Shown here: piece after piece, positions 13,185 through 54,756 of the stretch
Position numbering within the stretch: position 1 is the stretch's first letter
How the letters are laid out: each line of letters starts with the position of its first letter
DNA from: Xylophilus sp. ASV27
GTDB taxonomy: Bacteria > Pseudomonadota > Gammaproteobacteria > Burkholderiales > Burkholderiaceae_C
Assembly: GCF_016428875.1 (NCBI RefSeq)
Contig: NZ_JAELTO010000005.1
Span: 1 to 64,000 of the forward strand
Direction: 5' to 3'
Length of the DNA: 64,000 bases
The notes under the pieces: model-generated
Database searches by the model: none
What the model saw: only the letters and a program-made list of their open reading frames with translations
What the model was told of the DNA's origin: nothing
Position numbers and translations under genes: made by a program

Positions 13185-14093
13185 CTAACGCCGCAGCCGC
13201 ACCAGTCCGGTGGACAGCAGGGTGCCGGCCATGATGACCGCGCCGCTGCCAAGCATCCAGGCCGTGACTGGCTCGCCGAGCAGCGCCGCGCCGTAGCCGA
13301 GCGCGAAGACCGGCGCCAGGAAGGTCACGGCCAGCGCGCGGCTCGGGCCGGCGCGTTCGATCAGGCGGAAGTACAGCAGGTACGCCAGCGCCGTGCACAG
13401 CACCGCAATCGCCAGCACCGCGGCCCAGGCGCGCGGGCCGGGCATGCGCGCGGGCCAGCACCAGATGGCCGGCACGGCAAGGCCGAGCGCCGCGCCGATC
13501 TGGCTGCCGGTGGCGGTCACCACCGGCGGTATGCCGGCCAGGTGCCGCTTGGCGAAGCTCGCGGCCAGGCCGTAGCAGCACGAGGCGCCCAGGCAGGCCA
13601 GCACCGCCCACAGGCCGCTGCTGCCGGTGTGCAGGCTGGTGCTGCCGCTGGCCAGCAGCACCACGCCGGCAAAGCCGGTGGCCAGCCCGCACCAGCGCAG
13701 CCAGCCGAGCCGGTCGCCCAGCCAGGCCCAGGCCACCACCGCACCGAACAGCGGCACCGTGGCGTTCAGGATCGAGGCCAGGCCGGTGGTGATCGACAGC
13801 ACCGCGTAAGAGAACAACGCGAACGGGATGGCCGAGTTGATCAATCCTGCCGCCAGCAACACCCGCCAGTGCCGCCGCAGCATCCCGCCCATGCCGCGCG
13901 CGAGCAGCAGCGGCAGCAGCACCAGCGCGGCCACCGACACGCGCAGGCCGGCGGTGGTGACCGGCCCGAACTCGGCCGCGCCCCAGCGCATGAACAGGAA
14001 GGAGCTGCCCCAGATCGCCGCGAGCAGCAGGAAGTCGAGCAGCCAGGGCTGCGGTTGGACTTTGGTGGCGATGGCGCTGGTGGCGCTGCTCAT
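13185..14093 (-). CDS. EamA/DMT-family metabolite exporter
   Basis: The 302-residue protein has ten hydrophobic helices in two repeated EamA halves: LLDFLLLAAIWGSSFLFMRW opens the first, and LACLGASCCYGLAASFAKR the second. Such proteins export or exchange amino acids and other small metabolites across the inner membrane; the substrate is unknown. ATG 14093 overlaps the TGA of ogt by 4 bases (ATGA), implying translational coupling. Its TAG stop is supplied by the CTAA target duplication of MITE copy 1. Confidence 0.88.
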   Translation of the reverse strand: MSSATSAIATKVQPQPWLLDFLLLAAIWGSSFLFMRWGAAEFGPVTTAGLRVSVAALVLLPLLLARGMGGMLRRHWRVLLAAGLINSAIPFALFSYAVLSITTGLASILNATVPLFGAVVAWAWLGDRLGWLRWCGLATGFAGVVLLASGSTSLHTGSSGLWAVLACLGASCCYGLAASFAKRHLAGIPPVVTATGSQIGAALGLAVPAIWCWPARMPGPRAWAAVLAIAVLCTALAYLLYFRLIERAGPSRALAVTFLAPVFALGYGAALLGEPVTAWMLGSGAVIMAGTLLSTGLVRLRR

Positions 14094-19108: not shown

Positions 19109-19124
19109 AAGTTGGCAAGTCTTA

Positions 19125-19286
19125 GGGCGACGCTGAACAAGTCCCCGCGCTGGCGCGCGCCCTGGTGTGGGATGGGATGCAAGGCGCAAACCGCAGCCAT
19201 GGCCGCCGCCATGGCGAGGATTTGCAACGCCGCAGACCGCCCACGGCAGGGATGCGCGACACGCGAGGGGCTTGTTCAGCGTTGCC
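19125..19286 (+). mobile_element. 162-bp MITE, IS5-like ends, copy 2
   Basis: The element starts GGCGACGCTGAACAAGTC and ends GGCTTGTTCAGCGTTGCC, with the 4-bp target duplication TTAG at 19121-19124 and 19287-19290. The internal hairpin is GCCATGGC-cgcc-GCCATGGC (19196-19215). It lies between convergent waaA and an aminotransferase gene; the right TTAG contains the aminotransferase TAA stop. No coding capacity of its own. Confidence 0.87.
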
Positions 19287-20471
19287 TTAGAGCCGCGCCA
19301 GCCGCTCCAGCGCGGCGTGCAGCGTCTCGTCCTTCTTGGCGAAGCAGAAACGCACCACGCGCTGGTCGGTGCCGTCGCCGTAGAAGGCCGACAGCGGGAT
19401 CGCGGCCACGCCGTGGGTGCGCGTGAGCCATTGGCAGAAGTCGGCTTCTGAAAGATCGCTCACGGCGGTGATGTCCACGCACTGGAAGTAGCTGCCCTCG
19501 CTGGGCAGCAGCCGCAGGCGCGTGGCGGCCAGGCCCGCGCGGAACAGGTCGCGCTTGGCGCGGTAGAAGGCCGGCAGTTCCCGGTAGGGCGACGGGTCTT
19601 GCAGGTACTCGGCCAGGCCCACCTGCATCGGCGTGTTGACGGTGAACACGTTGAACTGGTGGACCTTGCGGAACTCCTCCATCAGGCGCGCCGGCGCCGC
19701 CACGGTGCCGACCTTCCAGCCCGTGACGTGGAAGGTCTTGCCAAAGCTCGACACCACGAAGGCCCGCGCCGCCAGGCCGGGGAAGCGCGCGGCGCTGTGG
19801 TGCTCGCCCTCGAACACCATGTGCTCGTAGACCTCGTCGCTGATCAGCAGCACGTCGGTCGGGGCCAGCAGCGCCTGCAGTTGCAGCATTTCGTCCCGCG
19901 TCCAGACGGTGGCGCTGGGGTTGTGCGGGGTGTTGGCGATCAGGGCGCGCGTGCGCGGCGTGGTGGCCGCGGCGATCCGGGCGAAGTCCGGGCGGAAGCT
20001 GCCGGGCGTGAGCGGCACGCGCACCACGGTGCCGCCGGCCAGCTCGACGTTGGGCACGTAGCTGTCGTAGCAGGGTTCGAGCACGATCACCTCGTCGCCC
20101 GGCCGCACCACCGCCAGGATGGCGGTGAGGATGGCCTGGGTGGCGCCGGCGGTGACGGTGATTTCGGTGGCCGCGCTGTAGCGGTGGCCGTGCAGCGCCT
20201 CGATCTTGGCCGACACCGCCTCGCGCAGCGCCGGCACCCCGGCCATCGGCGGGTACTGGTTGGCGCCGGCGCGCATGGCGTCCGCCACCGCCTGCACCAG
20301 GCGCGGGTCGCAGTCGAAGTCGGGGAAGCCCTGGCCCAGGTTGACCGCGCCGGTCTCGGCCGCCAGGGCCGACATCACGGAGAAGATGGTCGTGCCCACG
20401 CCGGGCAGCTTGGTGGCGAGGTGCGGGGTCGCGGCCGCATTGGAGGCCGGAGCGGAGGGCAGGGCGGACAT
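19287..20471 (-). CDS. PLP-dependent class I aminotransferase (methionine aminotransferase YbdL-like)
   Basis: The 394-residue fold-type I enzyme begins near KLPGVGTTIFSVMSALA, a stretch typical of the YbdL group of methionine/aromatic aminotransferases, and has GFPDFDC, NTPHNPSATVW, ISDEVYEHMVF and the PLP-lysine motif SSFGKTFHVTGWKVG (Lys about 243). It should transaminate methionine or its keto-acid in the cytoplasm. It lies 11 bases after cysB on the same strand, which fits a sulfur-metabolism context. Other subgroup members act as kynurenine aminotransferases, so specificity is provisional. Confidence 0.85.
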   Translation of the reverse strand: MSALPSAPASNAAATPHLATKLPGVGTTIFSVMSALAAETGAVNLGQGFPDFDCDPRLVQAVADAMRAGANQYPPMAGVPALREAVSAKIEALHGHRYSAATEITVTAGATQAILTAILAVVRPGDEVIVLEPCYDSYVPNVELAGGTVVRVPLTPGSFRPDFARIAAATTPRTRALIANTPHNPSATVWTRDEMLQLQALLAPTDVLLISDEVYEHMVFEGEHHSAARFPGLAARAFVVSSFGKTFHVTGWKVGTVAAPARLMEEFRKVHQFNVFTVNTPMQVGLAEYLQDPSPYRELPAFYRAKRDLFRAGLAATRLRLLPSEGSYFQCVDITAVSDLSEADFCQWLTRTHGVAAIPLSAFYGDGTDQRVVRFCFAKKDETLHAALERLARL

Positions 20472-33834: not shown

Positions 33835-35055
33835 TTAGAGCTTCTGAGGGGACTGGACAAACTGGACGATGCGGCGCGCGGCTTCGGCGCACTCGGCGGT
33901 TTCCGCGACGAGGGCCATGCGCACGCGCCCGGCGCCCGGGTTGGCGCCGCCGGCCTCGCGCGCGAGGTAGCTGCCGGGCAGAACCGTCACATTGTATTGA
34001 GCCAGCAGCGCACGCGCGAAGGCGGCATCGTCGCCGCCGAACGCGGGCGGGATGCCGGCCCACAGGTAGAAGCCGGCGTCGGGCAGGGCCACGTCCAGCG
34101 CCTGAGCGAGGATCGGCGTGACCTCGGCGAACTTGGCGCGGTACTGGGCGCGGTTGGCCGCCACATGCGCCTCGTCGCCCCAGGCGGCGATGCTGGCGGC
34201 CTGCACCACCGGGCTCATGGCGCTGCCGTGGTAGGTGCGGTAGAGCAGGAAGGCTTTCATCAGCGCCGCATCGCCGGCCACGAAGCCGCTGCGCAGGCCG
34301 GGCACGTTGCTGCGCTTGGACAGGCTGGTGAAGGCGACCAGGTTGCGGAAGTCGCCGCGGCCCAGCCGCGCCGCGGCCTCCAGGCCGCCCAGCGGCGCTT
34401 CGTCGCGGAAGTAGATCTCGCTGTAGCACTCGTCCGAGGCGATGACGAAGCCGTGGCGCTCGCTCAGCGCGAACAGCTTCCGCCACTCGTCCAGCGGCAT
34501 CACCGCGCCGGTCGGATTGCCGGGCGAACAGACGAACAGCAACTGCGTGCGGGCCCAGACATCGTCCGGCACCGCGTCCCAGTCCACCGCGAAGTTGCGC
34601 GCCGGATCGCTTGGCGCATAGAAGGGCGTGGCACCGGCGAGCAGGGCCGCGCCCTCGTAGATCTGGTAGAACGGATTGGGGCAGACCACCACCGGGTCGG
34701 GCCGCGTGGCATCGACCACGGTCTGGGTGAAGGCGAACAGCGCTTCGCGCGAGCCGTTGACCGGCAGCACCTGCGTGGCCGGGTCCAGCGCCAGCGCGTA
34801 GCGCCTGTGCAGCCAGCCGGTGAAGGCCTGGCGCAGCGCCAGGTCGCCGGCCGTGGGCGGGTAGCCCGCCAGCCCGCCTTCGGTGCGCAAGGCCGCATCG
34901 GCCAGGGCCTGCTGGATGAAGGGCGGCGTCGGGTGCTTGGGCTCGCCGATGCCGAGGCTGATCGGCCGCAGGCCGGGCGCGGGCGCGACGCCCGCGAAGA
35001 GTTGCCGCAGCCGCTCGAAAGGGTAGGGCTGCAGGCGGGAGAGCAGGGGGTTCAT
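33835..35055 (-). CDS. dapC: Succinyldiaminopimelate transaminase
   Basis: The 406-residue class I/II aminotransferase makes N-succinyl-LL-DAP. Motifs are [12 protein letters not shown] near residue 35, [25 protein letters not shown] and the PLP-lysine [14 protein letters not shown] (Lys about 245). [11 protein letters not shown] near the N-terminus is typical of the DapC group in betaproteobacteria. It is the first gene of the leftward dapC-dapD block. Upstream lies the 59-bp MITE remnant. Confidence 0.9.
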
Positions 35056-35083
35056 GGGCGGGGATTATCCCTTGGCGCCTTGG

Positions 35084-35142
35084 GGCGGCGCTGAACAAGT
35101 CCCCGCGAAGCGCGGCATGCGATGGGCTCGTTCGGCGTGGGC
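35084..35142 (+). mobile_element. 59-bp internally deleted MITE derivative, copy 4
   Basis: The left end GGCGGCGCTGAACAAGTCCC matches the 161-bp MITEs, and the right end (GGGCTCGTTCGGCGTGGGC) is a diverged inverse copy; the middle ~100 bases are missing. Flanks are TTGG (35080-35083) and TTAG (35143-35146), a target duplication with one mismatch. The right TTAG contains the stop codon of the repressor gene. Confidence 0.65.
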
Positions 35143-35850
35143 TTAGATGGTCTCGCTGTCGAGATGCACCGCGCGGCCGATCAGCATTGCCCCGGGCGCG
35201 GACAACTGCTTGCGTGGAAAGCGCAGCGGGTTGTCGGCCACCAGCCACCAGGCGCCGCGATCGCGCACCAGCCGGCGCACCAGGCAGGCACCTTCGTAGT
35301 TGACGGCGAACACCTTCCCGTCCATGGGCTCGGTCTGGCGGGTGTCCACCGTCACCACGTCGGCTTCGTGCAGCGAAGGCCGCATGCTGTCGTCGTTCAC
35401 CCTGAGTGCCAGCAGGCGGGCGCTCAGGTAGCCACGCCGGCGCAGCCAGGCCTGGGTGAACAGCGCCTGGGGGGTGTCGGCGCCGTCGGCCGCGCCGTCC
35501 GTGTGGCGCGTGGCCTGGCCGCTCTTGCCGGCGTGCAACGACAACGCCGCGATGGGCACCGCCACGATGCCGTCCTCGTCTTCGGGCCCCGGGTCGGGCG
35601 CCGCGGGCCTGGACGCATAGCCGGCTGCCGCCGGGTACTGGGCGAACCAGCCGCCCATGCCCCGCAAAGCCTCGATGGCGCGCACCGTCTTGTCCGACAC
35701 CGCCCGCGTGCCCGACAGCATCTGCCGCATGAAGGCCCCATCGCGGTAGCCAAGCAGGCGCCCGAACGCCGTGACGTTGCCCTGCGTGACTTGTGCAACC
35801 GCGAGCTCCAGCCGTTGGCGCCGATAAAGCTGTAACGCCGTTTCATCCAT
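35143..35850 (-). CDS. Phage-type repressor with S24 (LexA/CI-like) C-terminal domain
   Basis: The 235-residue protein has an N-terminal helix-turn-helix (VTAFGRLLGYRDGAFMRQML, about residues 26-45) and a C-terminal S24 domain with the nucleophile region RVNDDSMRPSLHEADVV (Ser155). Where LexA and CI have the catalytic Lys in a VKRL motif, this protein has VRRL (Arg192), which would be expected to prevent RecA-stimulated self-cleavage. An Ala-Gly bond (76-77) exists in the linker. It is divergent from a small Cro/YdaS-like gene over a region with three matching palindromes. ATG 35850 is preferred to the upstream in-frame ATGs because those overlap the operators. Confidence 0.8.
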   Translation of the reverse strand: MDETALQLYRRQRLELAVAQVTQGNVTAFGRLLGYRDGAFMRQMLSGTRAVSDKTVRAIEALRGMGGWFAQYPAAAGYASRPAAPDPGPEDEDGIVAVPIAALSLHAGKSGQATRHTDGAADGADTPQALFTQAWLRRRGYLSARLLALRVNDDSMRPSLHEADVVTVDTRQTEPMDGKVFAVNYEGACLVRRLVRDRGAWWLVADNPLRFPRKQLSAPGAMLIGRAVHLDSETI

Positions 35851-35859
35851 GCTGCGACA

Positions 35860-35920
35860 GTAGCACGCGCTACAGTTGCAAAAGCTACGCATCAAAATTA
35901 CAATCAGTAGCTATTGCTAC
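35860..35920. promoter_or_regulatory. Three GTAGC-N4-GCTAC operators between repressor and Cro-like genes
   Basis: Perfect copies are at 35860-35873 and 35907-35920, and one with a single mismatch (GTTGC-AAAA-GCTAC) at 35875-35888. All lie between the divergent start codons. Number, symmetry and position resemble the tripartite operator of lambdoid immunity regions. Spacing is 15 bp between the first two centres and 32 bp to the third. Confidence 0.65.
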
Positions 35921-35932
35921 CAAAAATGCAAC

Positions 35933-36229
35933 ATGGATCTGAACGAATACCTCCAGCTGGAAGGCGCGCCGAGCGTCTGCGAGTTGCGCCGGCGCATGGC
36001 CCTGTACGGCTCGCCGGTCAAGAGTGACGCGCAGATACGCCAGTGGCAGCATCGCTACGCGCGGCGCGTCCCATCGCCGGTCAACTGCGTGGCCATCGAG
36101 TACGCCACGGGAGGGCGCGTCACCCGCAAGGACCTGCGCCCGCACGACTGGGCCTGCATCTGGCCCGAACTGGCCTGCCAGCCCACTCCTCTGCCGCCCG
36201 CGACCCTGCATCCCGCCGACACCGAATGA
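35933..36229 (+). CDS. Cro/YdaS-like small DNA-binding protein
   Basis: The 98-residue protein resembles YdaS/Cro-type regulators: MDLNEYLQLEGAPSVCELRR, KSDAQIRQWQHRYARRVPSP, NCVAIEYATGGRVTRKDLRP and a Trp-containing end DWACIWPELA. The helix-turn-helix is about residues 28-70. It is divergent from the S24 repressor and 108 bases upstream of the polysaccharide synthase gene on the same strand, so it may be the first cistron of that operon. No other phage genes surround it. Confidence 0.75.
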   Translation: MDLNEYLQLEGAPSVCELRRRMALYGSPVKSDAQIRQWQHRYARRVPSPVNCVAIEYATGGRVTRKDLRPHDWACIWPELACQPTPLPPATLHPADTE

Positions 36230-36308
36230 CCCATCCTCCCCACCGTCGCCTCCGCCCCCTCGCCCCAGCACTTCCCCAACGCCCGCAAGTCCTTTCCCGC
36301 AAATTTCC

Positions 36309-36337
36309 GGCGGCCTGCCAGGCCTTGTGGGGCCGCC
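36309..36337 (+). promoter_or_regulatory. Hairpin directly upstream of the GT2 start codon
   Basis: GGCGGCC (36309-36315) pairs perfectly with GGCCGCC (36331-36337), whose last base touches the ATG at 36338; CCA/TGG inside the loop can extend the stem. No purine-rich ribosome-binding site is seen outside it, so the structure may restrict initiation. Confidence 0.4.
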
Positions 36338-37612
36338 ATGCTTGATGGCATCTACCACTTCTGGTTCTACTTCCCCGTGGTCATGGTCCTGCTGCAGTTC
36401 GCGGGCGGGCTGCTGGCGCGCCTGAGCACGCGGGCGGGCGACCCGGTGCGCGACTACGGCTACCAGCCCATGGTCAGCGTGCTGCTGCCCGTTTACAACG
36501 AAGGCGAGCACGTTCTGGCCACCATCGGCAGCATCCTGGCCTGCGACTGGCCGGCCGCGCGGCTGGAGATCGTGGCGGTGGACGACTGCAGCGCCGACGA
36601 TTCCTGGCACTGGCTCCAGGTGGCCGCCACGCGTTGGCCGCAGCAGGTGCGCATCCAGCGCAACGCCGTCAACAGCGGCAAGCACGTGTCGCTTTCGCGC
36701 GCTCTGGGCCGCTCGCGCGGCGAGGTGCTGATCTGCATCGACAGCGACTGCATCTTCGACCGCCAGGTGGTGCGCGAACTGGTGGCCTGCTTTGCCGACC
36801 CGCAGGTGGGCGCGGTGGGCGGCAACATCGGCATCCGCAACGTCAACGACAACGTGCTCACGATCGGCCAGACCATGGTCTATTACATGAGCTTCCAGTT
36901 CGGCAAGATGCTGCAGAACCTCTCGGGCCATGTGTTCTGCATCAGCGGTTGCCTGTTTGCGGTGCGGCGTCCGCTGTTCGAGCAGGTCGAGGCCGAGGTC
37001 AAGGGTCGCAACTGGTTCGGCCTGGGCGTGCGCGATGGCGAAGACCGCTACATGACCCACGCGATCATGATGCGCGGCTGGAAGACCATCGTGAACCCGC
37101 GCGCCACCTGCTGGACCGCCGCCCCGACGCAGCTCGCGCAGTTCTTCTCGCAGCAGGTGCGCTGGCGCCGCTCGGGCCTGCGCGACCTGTTCTGGACCTG
37201 GCGGCGCATGCCCGAGCACCTGCGCCTGATCGGCATGCTGCCGCTCATGGCCGCGCTGGTGCCCGAGACGTTCACGGCGGTCTGGTCGTTCCTGCTGATC
37301 GCCTCGGTGCTGTCGGCCGGCATCGCCCAGGCTGCATCGACGCTGATCGCGGCCATCCTGACCTTCGCCGGGGTGTTCGTCGCAGCGGCGCTGCTCTACA
37401 ACATCACCTGCCACCGGCTCGCCCCGGGCTCCACGCGCATCCGCACGCCGGTGCTGGCGGCCGTTGCCGGTGCCTGGTTCTTCGTCGACGCGCTGCTGAT
37501 CACCCTGGTGGCCCTGTTCACCTTCGACGTCGGCACCTGGGGCACGCGCGAAAAGCCAGGCGCCCGGCCCGCCCCCGCCACACCGCCCAAGACCCCGGAG
37601 CAGCAGGCATGA
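36338..37612 (+). CDS. Processive GT2 polysaccharide synthase (HasA/NodC/Alg8-type)
   Basis: The 424-residue inner-membrane enzyme has one N-terminal helix (about residues 5-25), a cytoplasmic GT-A domain and about four C-terminal helices (about 300-400). Catalytic features of processive synthases are present: VSVLLPVYNEGEHV, VAVDDCS (about 80), DSDC (about 134), GEDRYMT (about 233) and the acceptor-site QQVRW (about 271). A Pro/Ala-rich tail ends the protein. It should polymerise and extrude a beta-linked sugar from a UDP donor. The downstream genes (adaptor, exported partner, UDP-sugar dehydrogenase) support a uronate-containing product. Its TGA overlaps the next ATG by 4 bases. Confidence 0.88.
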   Translation: MLDGIYHFWFYFPVVMVLLQFAGGLLARLSTRAGDPVRDYGYQPMVSVLLPVYNEGEHVLATIGSILACDWPAARLEIVAVDDCSADDSWHWLQVAATRWPQQVRIQRNAVNSGKHVSLSRALGRSRGEVLICIDSDCIFDRQVVRELVACFADPQVGAVGGNIGIRNVNDNVLTIGQTMVYYMSFQFGKMLQNLSGHVFCISGCLFAVRRPLFEQVEAEVKGRNWFGLGVRDGEDRYMTHAIMMRGWKTIVNPRATCWTAAPTQLAQFFSQQVRWRRSGLRDLFWTWRRMPEHLRLIGMLPLMAALVPETFTAVWSFLLIASVLSAGIAQAASTLIAAILTFAGVFVAAALLYNITCHRLAPGSTRIRTPVLAAVAGAWFFVDALLITLVALFTFDVGTWGTREKPGARPAPATPPKTPEQQA

Positions 37613-38667
37613 CCCGCATGCAGAAGATCATCGTCACGGCCTACCGCTACCTCGCCATCGGGGTGCTGGGCGCCGTGCTGTCCACCGCCCTGGCCTACGC
37701 GGCGGTGACGCTGTTCTACATTGCCAACGAGAGCTGGGCCGCGCCGGTCGTCATCTCTCGCACCAACGAGAACATCCTGCGCCTCAGCGCCGAAGTGTTC
37801 CGCACCCGGCAGGCGGCCGACGGGCTCGACAGCGCATGGCAGGCGCTGGCGCGCGAATCCGAGACGCTGCGCGAGCAGGCGCGCGTGCTGGAGCGGCTGG
37901 TGGCCAGCGGCGACAGCGCCGTCGCGCAGCAAAGGCGTGCCGACCTGAAGCTGTCGCACCAGGTCGAGCTGCTGGGCGGCGCCAAGCGGGTGGACATCGC
38001 CAGGACGCGCAGGGTACTGGCGGAGATCGCCACGCTGGAGGACGGCATCGAGCGCGACCTCCAGGCCGGCCTCATGACGCGCGACGACGCGGTGCGCGCG
38101 CGCGCCACGCTCAACGGCTACAAGACCTCGGCCACCGACTCGGCCGCCACCGGCGTGGCGCTGGAGCGCCAGTTGTCCGAGCTGCGCCGCTCGGCCACCA
38201 CGCTGGCCGGCGGCCCGGCGCAACTGCCGCAGGCGCTGGAGGTGCTGGGCCGCACCGCCGGCTACCGCATGCAGCTCGAGAACCTGCGCCTGAAGCTGCA
38301 GCAGAACACGCAGGAGGCCGACAACAAGCGGCGCGAGGCGGCGCAGCTGCGGCAGATCATCGCCACGCTGAGCGACAGCCCCTACTTCCGCGTGACGCAG
38401 TCCGACACTCCGCTGTCCTTTGCCTTCGTGCCCTACGACAACGAGGCCGTCGCGCGGCCGGGCCAGCCGGTCTTCGACTGTGTGCTGCACGTGATCGTGT
38501 GCCGCCGCGTCGGCAGCGTCACGCGCGTGCACCGCGACGAGGAGCGCGCGCAGCACCCGCTGTTCAAGCTCGAGACGCGCGGGTTCCTGGTCGAGCTCGA
38601 TCTCACCGAGTCCCAGGCCGCCAAGTCTCGCGTGCTGTTCATTGGCCGCGCCCCGTTGTGGCTCTGA
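37609..38667 (+). CDS. Inner-membrane adaptor protein with coiled coil (MFP-like), polysaccharide cluster
   Basis: The 352-residue protein has one N-terminal transmembrane helix (about residues 15-40), a long helical hairpin/coiled-coil region (about 50-265) with Arg/Glu/Gln heptads, and a compact beta-rich C-terminus (YFRVTQSDTPLSFAFVPYD, PVFDCVLHVIVCRRVGSV). This is the layout of HlyD/Alg44-type periplasmic adaptors. No PilZ domain is visible, so regulation by cyclic-di-GMP is not indicated in this protein. It is coupled to the synthase (ATGA) and likely bridges it to the next gene product. I cannot name a specific family. Confidence 0.65.
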   Translation: MTRMQKIIVTAYRYLAIGVLGAVLSTALAYAAVTLFYIANESWAAPVVISRTNENILRLSAEVFRTRQAADGLDSAWQALARESETLREQARVLERLVASGDSAVAQQRRADLKLSHQVELLGGAKRVDIARTRRVLAEIATLEDGIERDLQAGLMTRDDAVRARATLNGYKTSATDSAATGVALERQLSELRRSATTLAGGPAQLPQALEVLGRTAGYRMQLENLRLKLQQNTQEADNKRREAAQLRQIIATLSDSPYFRVTQSDTPLSFAFVPYDNEAVARPGQPVFDCVLHVIVCRRVGSVTRVHRDEERAQHPLFKLETRGFLVELDLTESQAAKSRVLFIGRAPLWL

Positions 38668-38675
38668 GGGTTGCC

Positions 38676-39725
38676 ATGCGTTCATCCATTCTTCTGTGCA
38701 GCCTGGCCTTGCTGCCCCTGGCCGCCTCCGCCGACGAGGCCGACAGCTACTGCGCGCTGGCCGCAGCGCAGGGGCGCGTGCAGTCCGCCACCCTGTCGGC
38801 CCCCGAGGCTTTCGCCAGCGTGGGCGACCCCGCCAGCGAGCGGCGCAACGTCGTGCTGGGCGTGCGCAAGAGCTTCGCGCGCGAGCGCCAGGGCCGGCTG
38901 GCGACCGAACTGGCCGAGGCCCAGTGCGCGGCCTATCGCTCGCAGCAGCGCCTGGGCCTGCGGCTGGCCAGCATCGAACTGGTCACCGAGCAGCGTGGCC
39001 TCATGGCGCTGGCTGCGGCCCTGCAAGCTGCGCTGGCCGCCGCCGAATCGAACCTGCGCCAGGAGCGCCAGTCGCTCGCGCGCCGCCAGGCCACTTTGCT
39101 CGATGTGCAAAGCGCCTTCGACGCACGCGACCGGCTGCAGGAAAAGCGGGCCCGCGCCGAGCAGCGCCTGAGCTACCTGGCCGCGCATGCCCCGGTCGAA
39201 GAGGCCGCGCTGCTGCCCGACGCCGAGCGCGCCATCGCCGACCAGGCCCGGGTGACCGAGCTCGGCGCGCTGCTGCAGGCCGAAGGCGGCTGGGATGTGA
39301 GCGTGGCGCTGGGCATGCGGCGCGGGCTCTCCGACGGCGCGCAGTCGGCCTTCGCCAGCGTGGCGCTGTCGCGCAGCTTCGGCGCCGGCGCATCGCGCCG
39401 CGCGGCCGAGGACACCGGCGCGCTGGCGGCACGCTGGCTCTCCGAGCAGCAGGAAGGCCCGCTGCAGAAGCTCCAGCGCAGCCGCGATGCGGTGGCCGGC
39501 GCGTACGCCGCCGGGCGCATGGTGCAGACCGGGCTGCAGCAGCGCCGCGCCGCGCTGCGCGAAACGCTCGCCAGCGTGGAGGGCAGCGACACTGCCGCCG
39601 CCGCGCGCCTGGCGCGCAAACTGCGCATCGACATCCTCGCCACCGACGCCGAACTGGCCGACGCTGCCGCGCGCCAGGGCTACCTGCAATCGTGGCTGGC
39701 GCTGAACGGGGGCGAGCAGCCATGA
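38676..39725 (+). CDS. Exported helical protein, TolC-like partner of the polysaccharide cluster
   Basis: The 349-residue protein starts with a Sec signal peptide (SILLCSLALLPLAASA, cleavage near ASA-DEA). The mature part is dominated by long amphipathic helices (AALQAALAAAESNLRQERQS and RRAALRETLASVEG regions) with one beta-like segment, GGWDVSVALGMRRGLSDG, followed by SAFASVALSRSFGAGA, reminiscent of the outer-membrane strands in half of a TolC/OEP protein. It contains only one such set, so it may be a reduced or duplicated-by-oligomer version. It ends with ATGA coupling to the dehydrogenase gene. Confidence 0.55.
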   Translation: MRSSILLCSLALLPLAASADEADSYCALAAAQGRVQSATLSAPEAFASVGDPASERRNVVLGVRKSFARERQGRLATELAEAQCAAYRSQQRLGLRLASIELVTEQRGLMALAAALQAALAAAESNLRQERQSLARRQATLLDVQSAFDARDRLQEKRARAEQRLSYLAAHAPVEEAALLPDAERAIADQARVTELGALLQAEGGWDVSVALGMRRGLSDGAQSAFASVALSRSFGAGASRRAAEDTGALAARWLSEQQEGPLQKLQRSRDAVAGAYAAGRMVQTGLQQRRAALRETLASVEGSDTAAAARLARKLRIDILATDAELADAAARQGYLQSWLALNGGEQP

Positions 39726-41029
39726 GCGCCGCGCGGACGCCGGAAGATACCCCCGTAAACTGCATCCTCGTCGTCGGCCTGGGCTACGTCGGCGCGCCGC
39801 TTGCGGTCGCGTTGTCGGCGCATTTCAGGGTCATCGGCTACGACGTGGATGCGCAGCGCGTGGCCCAGTTGCAGGCCGGCCACGACCGTACCCACGAGAT
39901 CGACCCGCAGGCCCTGGCCGGCTGCAGCGCGCAATGGACCACCCTGCCCGAGAGCATCGGCCAGGCCGACGTGGTCATCGTCACCGTGCCCACGCCCATC
40001 GACGAATTCCGCGTGCCCGACCTGGGTGCCGTGCGGCGGGCCACGCAGACCATCGGGCGCTGGATGCGCAAGGGCGCCACGGTGGTATACGAAAGCACGG
40101 TCTACCCGGGCGTGACCGAGGACATCTGCGCGCCGATGCTGGCGCGCAGCTCGGGGCTGACCTACCCGGGCGACTTCCACGTCGGCTACTCGCCCGAGCG
40201 CATCAACCCCGGCGACCGGGTGCATACGCTCACCAGCACCACCAAGATCGTGGCCGGCGACACGCCCCGGGTGCGCGACGCGCTGGCCGCCCTCTACGGC
40301 TGCATCACCCAGGTCTACCCGGCGCAGAGCATCCGCGTGGCCGAAGCCGCCAAGGTGCTGGAGAACACGCAGCGCGACGTCAACATCGCGCTGATGAACG
40401 AACTCAGCCAGATCTTCAGCCGCGTGGGGCTCGACACCACCGACGTGATCGACGCCGCGCGCAGCAAGTGGAACTTCATGGACTTCCGCCCCGGCCTGGT
40501 GGGCGGGCACTGCATCTCGGTCGATCCGTACTACCTGAGCCACAAGGCGGCGTCGCATGGCATCGTGGCCGACGTCATCCTGTCGGCGCGGCAGATCAAC
40601 GAAAGCATGCCCGCCTTCGTCGCCGAGCAGTTGCTGCACCGCATGGTGCAACACCAACTGCTGCACCACGACACCGTGGTCACCATCATGGGCGTCACCT
40701 TCAAGGAGGACGTGTGCGACGTGCGCAACTCGGGCGTGGTGGACATCTATCGGCGGCTCAGCGCGCTGGGCATCGAGGTGCAACTGATCGACCCGCTGGC
40801 CGACGCCGACGCGCTGCTGCGCAAGGAGGGCCTACGCATCACCGAGCCATCCCAGGCCCGACCGGCCGACGCCATCGTGCTGGCCGTGCCGCATGCGCCG
40901 TTCCGCCTGCAAGGCTGGCAACTGGTGCGGCGGCTGGCGCGTGCCGGCCAGCCGGTGGTGGTGGCCGACGTGAAGGCCATGCTGCCGCGCGATGAGCGGC
41001 CGGCGCACGTCAGCCATTGGCGGCCCTGA
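39722..41029 (+). CDS. Nucleotide-sugar 6-dehydrogenase (WbpA/TviB-like UDP-HexNAc dehydrogenase)
   Basis: The 435-residue enzyme oxidises C6 of a UDP-sugar to a uronate in two NAD-dependent steps. It has the NAD-binding VVGLGYVGAPLAVAL (about residues 17-31), TVPTPIDEF, YESTVYPGVTEDIC, GYSPERINPGD, EAAKVLENTQRDVNIA with the catalytic Lys, and GLVGGHCISVDPYYL with catalytic Cys about 263. The GHCI-SVDPYYL form and ESTVYPG point to the WbpA/TviB/CapL branch (UDP-GlcNAc or UDP-GalNAc) and away from UDP-glucose or GDP-mannose dehydrogenases. It probably supplies the uronic acid donor for the adjacent synthase. Confidence 0.85.
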   Translation: MSAARTPEDTPVNCILVVGLGYVGAPLAVALSAHFRVIGYDVDAQRVAQLQAGHDRTHEIDPQALAGCSAQWTTLPESIGQADVVIVTVPTPIDEFRVPDLGAVRRATQTIGRWMRKGATVVYESTVYPGVTEDICAPMLARSSGLTYPGDFHVGYSPERINPGDRVHTLTSTTKIVAGDTPRVRDALAALYGCITQVYPAQSIRVAEAAKVLENTQRDVNIALMNELSQIFSRVGLDTTDVIDAARSKWNFMDFRPGLVGGHCISVDPYYLSHKAASHGIVADVILSARQINESMPAFVAEQLLHRMVQHQLLHHDTVVTIMGVTFKEDVCDVRNSGVVDIYRRLSALGIEVQLIDPLADADALLRKEGLRITEPSQARPADAIVLAVPHAPFRLQGWQLVRRLARAGQPVVVADVKAMLPRDERPAHVSHWRP

Positions 41030-41086
41030 CGTGGCGCGGCGCGCCGGGTAGGGCTGAATCCCGAGGAATGCCCTTGCCGCAGTTAG

Positions 41087-41247
41087 GGCAACGCTGAACA
41101 AGTCCCTCGCGCGTCGCGCATCCCTGCCGTGGGCGGTCTGCGGCGTTGCAAATCCTCGCCATGGCGGCGGCCATGGCTGCGGTTTGCGCCTTGCATCCCA
41201 TCCCACGCCAGGGCGCGCGCCAGCGCGGGGACTTGTTCAGCGTCGCC
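41087..41247 (-). mobile_element. 161-bp MITE, IS5-like ends, copy 3 (inverted)
   Basis: It is the reverse orientation of copies 1 and 2: it starts GGCAACGCTGAACAAGTC and ends GACTTGTTCAGCGTCGCC, flanked by TTAG at 41083-41086 and 41248-41251. The internal hairpin GCCATGGC/GCCATGGC is conserved. It lies between the convergent dehydrogenase and GNAT genes. Confidence 0.87.
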
Positions 41248-41262
41248 TTAGGGTCAGTGCTA

Positions 41263-41739
41263 TCAGGATTGAAGCGAGGAGGGCGCGGGTGGTTTGGCGA
41301 CAAAACCCCGTTCAACGTCGCCGCGGAAGCCGACCGCCGCATAGAGCCGGTGCGCCTCCTCGCGCTGGGCGCCGGACAGCAGCAGCACCTTGCAGCAGCC
41401 GTCCGTCCAGGCCAGCTCCAGCGCATGGGCCAGCACCTGTCGCGCGAGCCCCCGGCGGCGGCAGTCAGCGGCGGTGATCACGTGCTCGATGACGCCGATG
41501 CGGGCACCGCCGCTGCCCAGGTTGGCCACGGTGGCGAGCATGCAGGTGGCGCCGATCCGGCCGTCGTCCACCTCGGCGACGACGAGGCGCGAATGCCGGT
41601 CCTGGGCCACCTCCTGCCACAGCGCGCGGGCCCGCTCGGGCGCGAGCGGCGGGTCGTGGGGCCGCAGCTCGCGGTAGAGGGCCAGCACGCCGTCCAGGTC
41701 GGACGCGCTGGCGCAGCGCACGAGCGGAGTCGGGGCCAT
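41263..41739 (-). CDS. GNAT-family N-acetyltransferase
   Basis: The 158-residue protein has the GNAT fold: VRCASASDLDGVLALYREL at the start, the beta-4 region IGVIEHVITAADCRRRGLARQVLAHALELA with the Q/RxxGxG/A acetyl-CoA loop (RRRGLA), and HRLYAAVGFR near the end. The substrate is unknown. It begins 7 bases after the mmsB stop on the same strand, so it is probably the last gene of the valine-degradation operon. Confidence 0.85.
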   Translation of the reverse strand: MAPTPLVRCASASDLDGVLALYRELRPHDPPLAPERARALWQEVAQDRHSRLVVAEVDDGRIGATCMLATVANLGSGGARIGVIEHVITAADCRRRGLARQVLAHALELAWTDGCCKVLLLSGAQREEAHRLYAAVGFRGDVERGFVAKPPAPSSLQS

Positions 41740-41746
41740 GGGCGGT

Positions 41747-42631
41747 TCAGGCTTTCTGTACCAGCCGGATCACGCTGGAGAAATCCAGCGCGCCATGTCC
41801 GGCCAGGCTGTGTGCCGCATACAGGCTGCGCGCCAGTCCGCCGAGCGGCGTGGCGGCGCGCACGGCGGTGGCGTTTTCCTGCGCCAGGCCCAGGTCCTTG
41901 AGCATCAGGTCGGTGCCAAAGCCGCCGGCGTAGCCCTTGGAGGCGGGGGCGTTCTCCATCACGCCGGGCAGCGGGTTGTATTTTTCCAGCGCCCAGTTGC
42001 CGCCGGAACTGCGCCGCATGATCTCGGACAGCACCTTCGGGTCCAGCCCGTTGGCCACGCCCAGGGCGATCGCCTCGCTGGTGCCGATCATCAGGATGCC
42101 CAGCAGCATGTTGTTGCAGATCTTGGCGGTCTGGCCGGCGCCGGCGTCGCCGGCGTGGAAGATGTTGGCGCCCATCTTCTCCAGCAGCGGGCGGGCGCGC
42201 TCCAGCGCCTGCGCGCTGCCGCCGACCATGAAGGTCAGCGTGCCGGCGATGGCGCCGCCGGTGCCGCCGGAGACCGGCGCGTCCAGACAGTCCAGGCCGC
42301 GCGCGGCGGCGGCTTCGGCCAGCTTGCGCGCGGTGGCAGCCGAGATGGTGCTGCAGTCGATCACCAGCGCGCCGGCCGGCAGTTGCGCCAGCAGGCCCTG
42401 CCCGCCCAGGTACAGGGCTTCGACGTGCTGGCTCGCGGGCAGCATGCTGATGACGACTTCGGCCTTCTGCACGGCCTCTGCCGCCGATGCCGCGATGCCC
42501 ACGCCGTCGGCGCGCAATCTGTCGCAGGCGGCGGCCGACAGGTCGAAGGCCTGCACGGCGTGGCCGGCCTTGTGCAGATTCAGGGCCATGGGGCCGCCCA
42601 TGTTGCCCAGGCCCAGGAATGCGATGCGCAT
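41747..42631 (-). CDS. mmsB: 3-hydroxyisobutyrate dehydrogenase
   Basis: The 294-residue beta-hydroxyacid dehydrogenase oxidises 3-hydroxyisobutyrate to methylmalonate semialdehyde in valine breakdown. It has the NAD motif IAFLGLGNMGGPMALNL at the N-terminus, the substrate-binding DAPVSGGTGGA (about residues 118-128) and the catalytic Lys171 in GAGQTAKICNN. Context with mmsA and an acyl-CoA dehydrogenase supports the assignment over tartronate semialdehyde reductase. Palindromic copy F separates it from the upstream dehydrogenase gene. Confidence 0.92.
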   Translation of the reverse strand: MRIAFLGLGNMGGPMALNLHKAGHAVQAFDLSAAACDRLRADGVGIAASAAEAVQKAEVVISMLPASQHVEALYLGGQGLLAQLPAGALVIDCSTISAATARKLAEAAAARGLDCLDAPVSGGTGGAIAGTLTFMVGGSAQALERARPLLEKMGANIFHAGDAGAGQTAKICNNMLLGILMIGTSEAIALGVANGLDPKVLSEIMRRSSGGNWALEKYNPLPGVMENAPASKGYAGGFGTDLMLKDLGLAQENATAVRAATPLGGLARSLYAAHSLAGHGALDFSSVIRLVQKA

Positions 42632-50813: not shown

Positions 50814-50841
50814 CCTGGGCTTCCTGTAGTCCAGGCTTTTT
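50814..50841 (+). terminator. Probable Rho-independent terminator of glgP
   Basis: CCTGGG (50814-50819) and TCCAGG (50830-50835) form a 6-bp stem with one G-T pair and a 10-base loop, followed by CTTTTT. It lies 44 bases after the glgP stop. The stem resembles half of the dispersed palindromic element, so it may be a degenerate copy acting as a terminator. Confidence 0.5.
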
Positions 50842-50881
50842 GGGGAGCGAGGAGCCCCGGGCCTGCGCCTGGGGTTCAGTG

Positions 50882-52651
50882 ATGTTCATGACCGAGAAGT
50901 TGATATACGCGACTGCACACTACGCAGCGCTGGCCGTGTTCCTGCTCTGCTGCTGGGGCATGGGGCGCTGGATCATGGGGCGGCAGGCGGACGCGCGGAT
51001 CCAGGATTTCTGGCTGGGCCACGCCCTGTGCGCAACGTTCGGCACCGGGGTCTTCATCTGCGCGCTGCAGTTGCTCGCGGTCGCCGGTCTGCTGCTGCCG
51101 CCGTTCATCCTTGCGCTGACGGCGCTGGGGTTGCTGCTGGCCTTGCTGCAACTGCGGCACCGGCCCTGGCGCAGTGCCGGACGGCTGCACTGGACCTTCT
51201 GGCTGATCCTCGCCATTGCCGCGTGCACCGTGCTGTTCCCGCTGCGCCCGCCCCTGACCTGGGACGAACTGGCCTACCACCTTCCGCACGCCAGGCAATG
51301 GGCGCTGAGCGGGCGGCTGCAGGTCAATGAATGGCTGCGCTACCCCTGGTTCCCTTTCAACTACAACCTGCTGTACGCGGGCGCGCTGGCCGTCTACGAC
51401 GACGTCTTCGCCCACATGCTGCATGCCTACGCGGGCTGGTTGACGGCCTTGCTGGTCTACCGCTTCGGGCTGCATATGGCCAACCGGGCCACGGCGTTCC
51501 TGGCGTGTGCCCTGTGGCTGGTGCTGGCGCGCCCCGAGTTCGCGAATGCCTACATCGACATGGGCGTCGCGCTGTTCGTCTTTGCTGCCTTCATCTGCCT
51601 GCAACTGTGGCTGGAGGACCGTCGTTCGCGCGCCTGTATGCTGCTGGGCGCCTTCCTGCTGGGCGTGGCGATCGGCAGCAAGTACCAGGGGCTGCTGTTC
51701 CTGCCGCTGTTCGCGGCCGCCGTGGTCTGGAAGGATCGCCGGCCGTCTTCCTGGCTCCTGTGCGCGGCGGCTGTGGCGTTGCCCTGCATCTACTGGTACG
51801 GGCGCAATTTCGTCATGACGGGTGACCCGGTGGCGCCGCTCGGCGGCAGGATCTTCGGCTTCACGGACTGGAACATGGGCGACTATGCCCATCAGTTCGA
51901 GGACATACGCCTGAACTACGGCTGGCCGCATCCGGCCCTGTGGCCCGCGCTGCTGACCCCGCTGCTGATTCCCCGCGCGCGGCATCGCATGGCCTATGCC
52001 TGCGCCGTGGTGTTCGGGGGCTATTCCGTCGCCGTGTGGATGGCGACCTCGCACTATCCGCGCTATCTGCTGGCGGCCTATCCGGTGCTGTGCATCCTGT
52101 CGGTTTCGGTGTGCTGCTCCATTGCGCAATGGCTGCTGGAGCCGCTGGCGCGGCATGCGGCCCTGGTGTGGGCCGATGTAAGGGCGCGGGCCGTGCTGAA
52201 AACCGGCAGCTATGCGATCGCGCTGTCGCTGCTCGTGCATTTCGCTCAGCCGGGCATTGCGCGCGAATGGTCCCTGGTGGCCGTGACACCCGAAGCTCGG
52301 GCCGAGGTAGTGAAGGTCGCGCTTCCCGAATACGCAGGAACTCTCGACTACCTGCAGAAGCATCGCGGCCTGCGGGTCTACCAGAGCGGGATGGAGGGCG
52401 CGCTCTACTATGCGCCGCCGCCCATATGGGGCGACCATTTCGGCCCCTGGCGCTACCGCGACTTCGTCACGCTCCCGCCGCGCGAACTGGCGCAGCGCCT
52501 GAGGCAGCAGAAGTTCGACACGCTGGTCCTGAGCGTTGCCGGCCGCGAGCGGCTTCTTGACGATCCCGACATGGCGCGGTATTTCACCGAAGTCCGCTCC
52601 GACCCGTTCTTCCGCATCTTCCGGGTCAAACCTTCTCCTGATTCAGAATGA
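50882..52651 (+). CDS. GT-C fold (GT39/PMT-like) membrane glycosyltransferase
   Basis: The 589-residue integral membrane protein has about ten to twelve hydrophobic helices and the GT-C catalytic loop with an acidic pair, PPLTWDELAYHLPHARQWALSG (about residues 122-143), then GIGSKYQG-like VAIGSKYQGLLFLPL. The C-terminal ~90 residues are soluble and periplasmic. Such enzymes move a sugar from a polyprenyl-phosphate donor to a lipid or glycan on the periplasmic side. ATG 50882 is used; 50888 is an alternative. Its TGA overlaps the next ATG (ATGA), and that gene encodes the matching donor-making GT2. Confidence 0.82.
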   Translation: MFMTEKLIYATAHYAALAVFLLCCWGMGRWIMGRQADARIQDFWLGHALCATFGTGVFICALQLLAVAGLLLPPFILALTALGLLLALLQLRHRPWRSAGRLHWTFWLILAIAACTVLFPLRPPLTWDELAYHLPHARQWALSGRLQVNEWLRYPWFPFNYNLLYAGALAVYDDVFAHMLHAYAGWLTALLVYRFGLHMANRATAFLACALWLVLARPEFANAYIDMGVALFVFAAFICLQLWLEDRRSRACMLLGAFLLGVAIGSKYQGLLFLPLFAAAVVWKDRRPSSWLLCAAAVALPCIYWYGRNFVMTGDPVAPLGGRIFGFTDWNMGDYAHQFEDIRLNYGWPHPALWPALLTPLLIPRARHRMAYACAVVFGGYSVAVWMATSHYPRYLLAAYPVLCILSVSVCCSIAQWLLEPLARHAALVWADVRARAVLKTGSYAIALSLLVHFAQPGIAREWSLVAVTPEARAEVVKVALPEYAGTLDYLQKHRGLRVYQSGMEGALYYAPPPIWGDHFGPWRYRDFVTLPPRELAQRLRQQKFDTLVLSVAGRERLLDDPDMARYFTEVRSDPFFRIFRVKPSPDSE

Positions 52652-53628
52652 CGCCCCTCATGTCGACCCTCCCGCAACCCGCGAGCACCATGCAGTCCTC
52701 AGAGCCCACCATCGCCGTCGTGCTGCCTTGCTACAACGAAGCCGCCTGCATCGGCCAGGTCATCCGGGAATTCAAGGCGGTATTGCCCGAGGCCGTGGTG
52801 CACGTCTTCGACAACGCGTCCACCGACGGCACGGCCGCGGTCGCCAAGGCACATGGCGCGCAAGTGCACCACGTGGCCCTGCGCGGCAAGGGCAACGTCA
52901 TACGCCGCATGTTCGCCGACGTGGAGGCCGACATCTACGTCATGACCGATGGCGACGCCACCTACGACGCATCCAACATCCGCGAGATGATCGAGGGCGT
53001 GCACGTGCACGGCTGCGACATGGTGGTGGGCGTGCGCGTGGACGACGGCTCCGAGGCCAACTACCGGGCAGGCCACCGCCTGGGCAACCGGCTGCTGACA
53101 GGGGCCGCCGCGCTGATCTTCGGCGGCGGCTTCACCGACATGCTCTCGGGGCACCGGGTGTTTTCCCGGCGCTATGCCAAGTCCTTCCCCGCCATGTCGC
53201 ATGGCTTCGAGACCGAGACCGAGCTCACCGTGCACGCCCTGGGCCTGCGCATGCCTTACATGGAACTGCCGGTCGCCTACCGTTCCCGGCCCGAAGGCTC
53301 GGTGAGCAAGCTCTCGACCTACCGGGACGGCTGGCGTATCCTGCGCACCATCCTCGGGCTTTTCACGAGCGAGCGGCCGCTGGTGTTCTATTCGCTGCTG
53401 GCGGCGGTGCTGGCGCTGACCTCCGTGGCGCTGGCCCAGCCGCTGGTCGCCACCTACCTGCAGACCGGCCAGGTACCCCGCTTTCCCACCGCCATCCTGT
53501 CCACTGGCATGATGATCAGTGCCTTCCTGTCGCTGGTCTGCGGCGTGCTGCTGCGCAACGTCACGCTGGCCCGGCAGGAAGCCAAGCGACTCGTATATCT
53601 GGCCATTCCGTCGGCACGCAGGGGGTAG
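52648..53628 (+). CDS. Polyprenyl-phosphate glycosyltransferase (GT2, DPM/GtrB-like)
   Basis: The 326-residue enzyme has a cytoplasmic GT-A domain (IAVVLPCYNEAACIGQVIREF, VHVFDNASTDGTAAVA, VMTDGDATYD with the DxD-type site) and two C-terminal membrane helices (about 245-265 and 283-303). SRPEGSVSKLSTYRDG is typical of dolichyl/undecaprenyl-phosphate sugar synthases. It probably loads a sugar onto undecaprenyl phosphate for the upstream GT-C protein, as in ArnC/ArnT or GtrB systems. The sugar and acceptor are unknown. Confidence 0.87.
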   Translation: MTPLMSTLPQPASTMQSSEPTIAVVLPCYNEAACIGQVIREFKAVLPEAVVHVFDNASTDGTAAVAKAHGAQVHHVALRGKGNVIRRMFADVEADIYVMTDGDATYDASNIREMIEGVHVHGCDMVVGVRVDDGSEANYRAGHRLGNRLLTGAAALIFGGGFTDMLSGHRVFSRRYAKSFPAMSHGFETETELTVHALGLRMPYMELPVAYRSRPEGSVSKLSTYRDGWRILRTILGLFTSERPLVFYSLLAAVLALTSVALAQPLVATYLQTGQVPRFPTAILSTGMMISAFLSLVCGVLLRNVTLARQEAKRLVYLAIPSARRG

Positions 53629-53700
53629 CCCCCGTCCGTCCCCTGGCGGTCCGCTGAATCCAGATGCAGGGATCGCGCGTAACCAGCAAAGTACCGGGAG

Positions 53701-54756
53701 ATGCGCATGGGGACAGTGGCAGATTGGGGAATCCGTTGGGTGGAGCAGGGCCGGCTCCCCGACGCCGTGGTGCGGGCCGGCATCCGGCAACTGCTGCGCG
53801 AGCGGCTGCAGGAGATCGCGGCCGACGACCCGGCCCGCTCGGCCGAGCTGACGGCCGCCTTCGTCGAACAGATGCGCAGAGCGCCGGTGGCGCTGGTGCC
53901 GGAAAAGGCCAATGAGCAGCACTACGAACTGCCACCCGCCTTCTTCCATGCCGTGCTGGGGCCGCACCGCAAGTACAGCGGCTGCTGGTGGCCGCAAGGG
54001 GTGCAGACCCTGGAGGAGGCCGAGCGCGAGGCCCTGGCGGCGACCTGCGAGCGGGCCGGCCTGCAGGACGGCCAGGACGTGCTGGAGCTGGGCTGTGGCT
54101 GGGGATCGCTCACGCTCTGGATGGCCGGGCACTACCCGGCAAGCCGCATCACCGCGGTATCCAATTCGGCGCCGCAGCGGGCCTTCATCGAGGCCGAGGC
54201 ACAGCGGCGCGGGCTGGCCAATGTGACGGTCCTGACCCGCGACATGAACAGCTTCGACGCCGGGCAGCCGTTCGACCGGGTGGTGTCGGTCGAGATGTTC
54301 GAGCACATGCGCAACTGGCCGCTGCTGTTCTCGCGCGTGGCCGGCTGGCTGCGGCCCGGGGGGCGCTTCTTCATGCACGTGTTCGTGCACCGCAGCGTGC
54401 CCTACGCCTTCGAGGAGCGGGACGCCAGCGACTGGATGAGCCGCTTCTTCTTCTCGGGCGGGATGATGCCGAGCGACGACCTGGCGGCGCTGTTCCAGGA
54501 CGAGCTGCGCCTGCTGCGGCGCTGGCGCTGGGACGGTCGCCACTATGAGCGCACCGCCAATGCCTGGCTGTCCAACATGGACCGCGAGCACCATGTGGTG
54601 CTGCCGATCCTGGAGCAGACCTACGGCCGGGCCGACGCCGAACTGTGGCGGCAGCGCTGGCGCATCTTCTTTCTCTCCGTGGCCGAGCTGTTCGGCTACG
54701 AGCAGGGGCGCGAATGGTGGGTCGGCCACTACCTGTTCGAGAGGCGCACGCCATGA
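53701..54756 (+). CDS. Cyclopropane-fatty-acyl-phospholipid synthase-like methyltransferase
   Basis: The 351-residue SAM enzyme has motif I DVLELGCGWGSLTLWMAGHYP (about residues 124-144), AVSNSAPQRAFIEAEA, and SVEMFEHMRNW, matching the CFA/mycolic-acid methylase family. The N-terminal lipid-binding extension of classical Cfa is missing or reduced; the methylase domain starts at about residue 75. Known relatives methylate unsaturated fatty acyl chains, including UfaM of furan fatty acid synthesis. It starts a run of four tightly coupled genes. ATG 53701 or 53707 are both possible starts. Confidence 0.85.
   Translation: MRMGTVADWGIRWVEQGRLPDAVVRAGIRQLLRERLQEIAADDPARSAELTAAFVEQMRRAPVALVPEKANEQHYELPPAFFHAVLGPHRKYSGCWWPQGVQTLEEAEREALAATCERAGLQDGQDVLELGCGWGSLTLWMAGHYPASRITAVSNSAPQRAFIEAEAQRRGLANVTVLTRDMNSFDAGQPFDRVVSVEMFEHMRNWPLLFSRVAGWLRPGGRFFMHVFVHRSVPYAFEERDASDWMSRFFFSGGMMPSDDLAALFQDELRLLRRWRWDGRHYERTANAWLSNMDREHHVVLPILEQTYGRADAELWRQRWRIFFLSVAELFGYEQGREWWVGHYLFERRTP

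Follow-up and report, generated by a model that had tools for sequence, protein, structure and literature searches.

The closest described counterpart of the locus reported here is the cyanobacterial cellulose exporter XcsA-XcsB-TolC, which a review presents as a tripartite model without experimental validation and with genes that do not lie in one operon (PMC12430437). A second relevant system is the PaaR2/YdaS switch of the Escherichia coli O157:H7 prophage CP-933P, in which a divergent CI-like repressor and YdaS share operators and are reported to form a bistable circuit (PMC8630535). Counterparts of both were found side by side in a 64,000-nucleotide stretch of the genome of Xylophilus sp. 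ASV27 (contig NZ_JAELTO010000005.1, positions 1 to 64,000; hereafter the window). Here, a divergent pair of genes for an S24-type repressor and a YdaS/Cro-like regulator lies directly upstream of four genes coding for a glycosyltransferase family 2 (GT2) polysaccharide synthase, a predicted periplasmic adaptor, a predicted TolC-like channel, and a nucleotide-sugar 6-dehydrogenase (Table 1). We read this arrangement as an operon for a polysaccharide synthase and a dedicated tripartite exporter that has come under a domesticated phage CI/Cro-type switch, and assign this reading a probability of roughly 0.6. The system is a variant of synthase-dependent polysaccharide export.

The locus resembles the cyanobacterial model in combining a GT2 synthase, a HlyD-like adaptor, and a TolC-like channel as one tripartite exporter (PMC12430437), and differs from it by having the three parts in one operon, a hyaluronan-synthase-like synthase without a PilZ domain, and an additional nucleotide-sugar dehydrogenase. 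The use of TolC-type channels by GT2 synthases is left open by that model (PMC12430437); since all parts sit in one short operon here, deletion and reconstitution are direct. With PaaR2/YdaS the locus shares a divergent CI-like/YdaS (Cro-like) pair with common operators in between (PMC8630535). In place of ydaT and the phage replication genes, a polysaccharide operon follows downstream here; the repressor is of the S24 type, and the operators are three in number and 14 bp long. Among the matches listed from the open-licence literature, the titles and abstract beginnings describe neither an operon with these four parts nor such a switch on a polysaccharide operon. The sheath gene lthB of Leptothrix was ruled out as the same system, as the title of the work concerned calls it GT8. 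Alginate synthesis (Alg8, Alg44, AlgK, AlgE), as it is generally known, also has a synthase, a periplasmic adaptor, and a sugar-nucleotide dehydrogenase, whereas the four genes here include no PilZ domain, lyase, epimerase, or acetylase and code for a TolC-like channel in place of AlgE. The has operon, which we take to pair hyaluronan synthase with UDP-glucose dehydrogenase, has a related synthase and an adjoining dehydrogenase; the dehydrogenase of Xylophilus is nearer to the TviB model than to the UDP-glucose dehydrogenase models, and the locus has its own predicted trans-envelope exporter. Finally, the mixed-linkage glucan system BgsA/BgsB of Sinorhizobium likewise has a GT2 synthase and a membrane fusion protein (presumably BgsB), whereas here a TolC-like channel and a dehydrogenase are in the operon and the synthase has no c-di-GMP domain according to Pfam.

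A four-gene unit with a predicted tripartite exporter

All six open reading frames listed in the initial annotation of this DNA are present, and all six genes have orthologues or conserved relatives in other species. In each of them the third codon positions vary most between relatives (the operon was compared with the loci L037 and L039, the regulatory pair with L039 and L088), and because change is concentrated at these positions the six genes are regarded as real and under selection. ATGA coupling at 37609-37612 and 39722-39725 and an 8-base gap at 38668-38675 connect the operon genes, as the initial annotation had noted.

The structure model of the third operon protein, calculated from 12 sequences, has a predicted local distance difference test score (pLDDT) of 87.5 and a predicted template modelling score (pTM) of 0.75. 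Its elements follow the order H-E-E-H-H twice, forming the two helix/beta-hairpin/long-helix repeats that characterise TolC and OprM. Foldseek returned a TolC-family match (E = 3.8e-10), and a second structure aligner placed 26 TolC/OprM-family structures first (Z = 13.7-16.5 over 319-331 residues), followed by two CusC entries (Z = 12.2) and unrelated structures at Z ≤8.7. Since the deviation from the 26 best structures amounts to 7.3-8.7 Å over the chain, the likeness to TolC holds as a fold and not in detail. At the sequence level, no Pfam family was found at E ≤1 and no PHROG at E ≤0.1, NCBIfam yielded two chance-level matches, and a profile of the 12 channel sequences searched against the sequences of the Protein Data Bank (PDB) retrieved chance-like entries only and no TolC chain. 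By its predicted fold, the third protein is a short TolC/OprM-type outer-membrane channel. It had been described initially as an exported helical partner, in a locus where no AlgE-like porin was seen; the gene stands and has a signal-peptide-like start, its identity is revised, and the unit does include a predicted outer-membrane component.

The adaptor model, calculated from 11 sequences (pLDDT 84, pTM 0.54), consists of a transmembrane helix, a 99-residue helix returning as two helices (a long coiled-coil hairpin), and a C-terminal beta domain, which is the order of elements in HlyD and EmrA. EmrA and MacA account for nine of the ten Foldseek matches with E ≤0.001, with EmrA at E = 6.3e-6 and TM-scores of 0.23-0.25. 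Pfam gave no HlyD match, and the profile search of the adaptor against PDB sequences returned chance-like entries only. Several structural results speak against these two assignments: the channel's Foldseek matches with E ≤0.001 have TM-scores of 0.35-0.53 at 8-11 Å, those of the adaptor reach TM-scores of just 0.17-0.25 with an Smc coiled coil as the tenth match, and the second aligner gave unrelated coiled coils for the adaptor. The Foldseek check proposed earlier for both proteins consequently yields a TolC-family match for the channel and EmrA/MacA with low TM-scores for the adaptor, which looks EmrA/HlyD-like on weaker evidence than that available for the channel. The family models used (Pfam, NCBIfam, and PHROG) miss both proteins, so that such systems are probably overlooked in annotation.

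In our reading, which draws on these models, the four genes form a unit of synthase, periplasmic adaptor, TolC-like channel, and UDP-sugar dehydrogenase; family models and predicted folds support the make-and-export unit with a nucleotide-sugar dehydrogenase that had been proposed at the outset. Neither a PilZ domain nor an epimerase or lyase was found in the four proteins by Pfam and NCBIfam, in agreement with the initial annotation. Its statement that an acetylase is missing is correct for the four operon genes, whereas a GNAT acetyltransferase gene (41263-41739, minus strand) is located in the same insertion.

A pattern-based scan of a genome collection covering 84,980 species with the synthase as query gave 34 loci, of which 12 carry the channel gene; the adaptor gene is present at ten of these and was not seen at L040 and L043, where the contigs break off within the channel gene or right at its beginning. 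Together with Paraburkholderia PGU19 and the window the unit occurs at 14 loci, 13 of them in Burkholderiales and one in a metagenome-assembled genome (MAG) of the Acidobacteriaceae (L047). Four belong to the Acidovorax family (the window, L037, L038, and L039), five are Burkholderia-like (one MAG), and four are from Ralstonia. All three of adaptor, channel, and synthase are present at 12 loci; the other two, whose contigs are cut off, have channel and synthase. The gene order varies, with the dehydrogenase first and the channel before the adaptor in Ralstonia (L045, L046, and L068) and the synthase last at the Burkholderia-like loci. The remaining 22 synthase loci were left out of the unit because neither adaptor nor channel was detected at E ≤1e-3 in the examined DNA, some of their contigs being short. 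The unit is rare, as full-length adaptor matches were found in only 4 of 299 sampled genomes of the family (three weak partial matches not counted) and in 2 of 399 of the order, the latter sample omitting two of those four. Among plasmids, a single record, that of Paraburkholderia PGU19, has an adaptor relative, and viral contigs contained no relative of the channel protein.

Genes next to the operon differ between the groups. Each of the three Burkholderia-like loci whose upstream sequence is long enough has a gene for an EAL-domain protein just before the operon (L036 8449-9768, L041 4270-5556, L042 3972-5297), and genes for a histidine kinase, a response regulator, and a GGDEF protein lie near the operon of Ralstonia L044. 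In the Acidobacteriaceae MAG a GH16 glycoside hydrolase gene (3325-4230) directly precedes the synthase; the last gene of Ralstonia ASV6 (L045), for which a GH16-like reading was considered, has no Pfam match and a weak pairwise match to that GH16 protein. The same export machine appears with differing neighbours across lineages.

The phage-type switch and its relation to the operon

The repressor matches Pfam Peptidase_S24 with 51.7 bits (cut-off 23.3) and a PHROG of transcriptional repressors, and the YdaS/Cro-like protein matches Pfam PF15943 with 33.8 bits (cut-off 30) and PHROG 35 (transcriptional repressor). The two genes diverge and share putative operator repeats that overlie a promoter-like sequence, as in CI/Cro switches of the YdaS kind. 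The perfect pattern GTAGCN4GCTAC occurs at two places in the whole 4.73 Mb genome, both between these two genes, compared to 40 for a control pattern. A three-site array with spacings of 15 and 31-32 is present in all four chromosomal pairs compared (the window, L038, L039, and L088), the third site having one mismatch in L039 and two in L088, and none of 2000 shuffles of the gap in the window contained three sites with at most one mismatch. The looser pattern GTWGCN4GCWAC with one mismatch allowed is not enriched in the whole window (6 occurrences versus a chance mean of 7.6), which tells against the operators; the case for them consequently rests on three sites without mismatch to this pattern, all in one gap. 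A scan of 35000-41300 found a single promoter-like site, the one in the operator array (mean in shuffles 0.2). The CI/Cro-like switch directly upstream of the operon is thus supported, as a divergent pair with conserved operators; it is real as sequence, and binding to the operators is predicted.

The genus-mate G001 has a homologous pair with one perfect and one single-mismatch operator site; a gene for a P-like helicase loader follows downstream, so that this pair is probably part of a prophage. In S24 proteins such as LexA and CI, a Ser-Lys dyad mediates self-cleavage. The serine is kept in the window, L038, L039, and L088, where arginine occupies the lysine position; the lysine is kept in the prophage copy L094. 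This substitution suggests that the repressor of the window is no longer self-cleaving upon DNA damage. Five further S24 relatives (L089-L093) were set aside because the stretches examined contained neither a YdaS homologue (E ≤0.01) nor an operator of this kind; several of them adjoin genes that we take to be leuS-like or chemoreceptor-like.

In the initial annotation, a prophage-style switch appeared to control the operon. The pair does adjoin the operon within one insertion, with the Cro-like gene on the operon's strand, and no terminator-like site was found on the plus strand from the promoter to the synthase. The DNA common to the window and the examined stretch of MAG L039 comprises 35141-35824 and 35859-41029 and nothing else (matches of >100 bases, E ≤1e-10), so that the two share the six genes alone in the stretches compared. 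All of the 14 loci except L040 and L043 could be judged for the pair, by a search of the examined flanks at E ≤1e-3. Pair and operon are adjacent at 3 of these 12 (the window, Acidovorax Leaf160 [L038], and MAG L039).

The remaining results weigh against control by the switch. The pair is absent from the examined flanks at nine of the 12 judged loci, including the closest relative found, Acidovorax sic0104 (L037), which has the operon and no pair within the 10 kb examined; it shares its downstream flank with Leaf160 and has other genes where the pair would be. Conversely, G308 (L088), from the genus of Leaf160, shares both flanks and pair with Leaf160 and has no operon in between, and the prophage of G001 also carries the pair without the operon. 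The 108-bp gap between the Cro-like gene and the synthase could hold a promoter of a type outside the scan, and a terminator-like site lies inside the synthase gene at 37450, such sites being about as common in shuffles (mean 2.1). Exclusive control of the operon by the pair is accordingly disfavoured. The distribution indicates that different lines have either gained the operon behind a switch already in place or lost it from there.

The same observations bear on an alternative in which the export operon is as described and has its own promoter, the CI/Cro-like pair being a mere neighbour left over from a self-regulating phage immunity region. The pair of G308 at the same flanks, with the same operator array and no operon, fits this explanation, as does the operon without the pair in sic0104 and at eight judged Burkholderia-like, Ralstonia, and Acidobacteriaceae loci. 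It is opposed by the common strand without a terminator-like or second promoter-like site between pair and operon, by the single insertion that holds both in the window, and by the restriction of the DNA shared with L039 to the six genes. We regard this alternative as quite conceivable, if short of even odds. Read-through control of the operon by the switch is supported and not proven, with somewhat better than even odds judging from the sequences.

A gene for a conserved Cro/C1-type helix-turn-helix regulator is present in L038 (7966-8697), L039 (8007-8738), L088 (6714-7445), and L037 (2537-3373). In three of these four it stands beside the S24/YdaS pair, and it has no match in the window.

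The putative product and its proposed synthesis

Pfam and NCBIfam name only two of the four operon proteins, the synthase and the dehydrogenase. The best NCBIfam scores of the synthase were to the PgaC and NodC models, far under their cut-offs, and a profile of 13 synthase orthologues searched against the PDB ranked hyaluronan synthases at the top (E = 6.7e-30), with the alignment to HAS1 extending through WGT. The motifs DD, DSD, GEDR, QQ.RW, and WG.R, which we take to be the GT2 catalytic motifs and a WGTR-type end, are invariant in all 13 orthologues. By sequence, the synthase is closest to the hyaluronan synthases, whose own product is the GlcA-GlcNAc polymer. The dehydrogenase scored 365.9 bits with TIGR03026 of NCBIfam (cut-off 189.8). 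Its score of 380.8 bits with the TviB model counts against a firm assignment, being under the equivalog cut-off of 592, so that its substrate is not fixed by the models. It is nearest to the TviB (UDP-GlcNAc 6-dehydrogenase) type, with a UDP-N-acetylhexosamine as candidate substrate and UDP-GlcNAc favoured.

The product might instead be a plain chitin- or PNAG-like homopolymer, with the dehydrogenase serving another surface sugar. The PgaC and NodC matches of the synthase, albeit under the cut-offs, would agree with this, as would the Acidobacteriaceae locus, which has a GH16 gene and no such dehydrogenase in the examined DNA. At the other 13 of the 14 loci, however, the dehydrogenase is within the unit, and in Xylophilus its start overlaps the stop of the channel gene, which makes a homopolymer unlikely. 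That the three export-like proteins form a small-molecule or protein secretion apparatus beside a glycosyltransferase by chance is highly improbable: efflux pumps and type I secretion are the usual setting of TolC and EmrA/HlyD-type proteins, but Pfam and NCBIfam find no ABC, MFS, or RND transporter among the four genes, structurally solved relatives of this synthase secrete their own polymer, and adaptor, channel, and synthase stay together despite differing gene order.

For the synthase operon behind a domesticated switch, we infer the product, export route, read-through, and bistability as follows from the computed gene order, predicted folds, operators, and insertion. The dehydrogenase would oxidise a UDP-N-acetylhexosamine, most likely UDP-GlcNAc, to the uronate, which the hyaluronan-synthase-like GT2 enzyme would polymerise, alone or alternating with UDP-GlcNAc, and extrude through a membrane pore formed by the enzyme itself. 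From there, the EmrA-like adaptor would guide the chain across the periplasm into the TolC-like outer-membrane channel. The S24 repressor would bind the three operators and shut the single promoter, which would read through the Cro-like gene into the operon, and the Cro-like protein would compete for the same operators, resulting in an on state and an off state. If the switch does drive the operon, a phage decision circuit would have been reused to make a surface polymer all-or-none.

Table 1. Features of the locus, in window positions.
Feature	Position	Strand	Basis or remarks
S24-type CI-like repressor gene	35143..35850	-	ORF 35143-35895; start ATG 35850 likelier than TTG 35895
YdaS/Cro-like regulator gene	35933..36229	+	start ATG 35933
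GT2 polysaccharide synthase gene, hyaluronan-synthase-like, no PilZ	36338..37612	+	family models, PDB profile search, motif alignment
Predicted membrane-fusion-type periplasmic adaptor gene, EmrA/HlyD-like	37609..38667	+	structure model, Foldseek
Predicted short TolC/OprM-type outer-membrane factor gene, signal-peptide-like start	38676..39725	+	structure model, fold matches
Nucleotide-sugar 6-dehydrogenase gene, TviB (UDP-GlcNAc) type closest	39722..41029	+	NCBIfam
Putative operator 1, GTAGCACGCGCTAC	35860..35873		perfect GTAGCN4GCTAC palindrome
Putative operator 2, GTTGCAAAAGCTAC	35875..35888		one mismatch to GTAGCN4GCTAC; overlaps -35 hexamer
Putative operator 3, GTAGCTATTGCTAC	35907..35920		perfect GTAGCN4GCTAC; over expected transcription start
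Sigma-70-like promoter, TTGCAA-17-TACAAT	35876..35904	+	reads into Cro-like gene, towards operon; inside operator array
6,665-bp insertion relative to genus-mate G006	35075..41739		BLAST; contains the six genes and the GNAT gene
167-bp MITE-like repeat with inverted ends	41084..41250; also 13021-13187, 19123-19289		sequence repeats in window
20-25 bp end of MITE-like element	35084..35107		other side of the six genes

The insertion and its surroundings

In place of the insertion that holds the six genes, G006 has 17 bases. The genus-mates G001 and G002 are also without it: in G001 the two flanking genes enclose about 1.5 kb of different DNA, and in G002 one of them is shortened. In G003-G005 no close relative of the right-hand flanking gene adjoins the left-hand one. 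An element resembling a miniature inverted-repeat transposable element (MITE), or its end, is found on both sides of the six genes. Its 14-base end occurs in 47 copies in the genome, several of them near the contig start, versus 2 for a control pattern; a search of L037, L038, and L039 for its exact 13-base end gave no match. This MITE-like element may have had a role in moving the six-gene block. A more far-reaching proposal is that the six genes are a transferable cassette: a phage CI/Cro switch that has lost damage-induced cleavage would set heritable on and off states of an operon coding for the synthase, the adaptor, and the TolC-type exporter of a novel polymer of amino-sugar uronates. 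This proposal is tentative and, in our view, doubtful.

The region 35056-41746, between an aminotransferase gene (33835-35055, presumably dapC) and the gene at 41747-42631, is a possible insertion hot spot, since it is nearly empty in G006, measures about 1.5 kb in G001, and is changed in G002. Elsewhere in the window, three consecutive genes (50840-54756) code for a large protein with no family above cut-off, a GT2 enzyme, and a cyclopropane-synthase-like methyltransferase.

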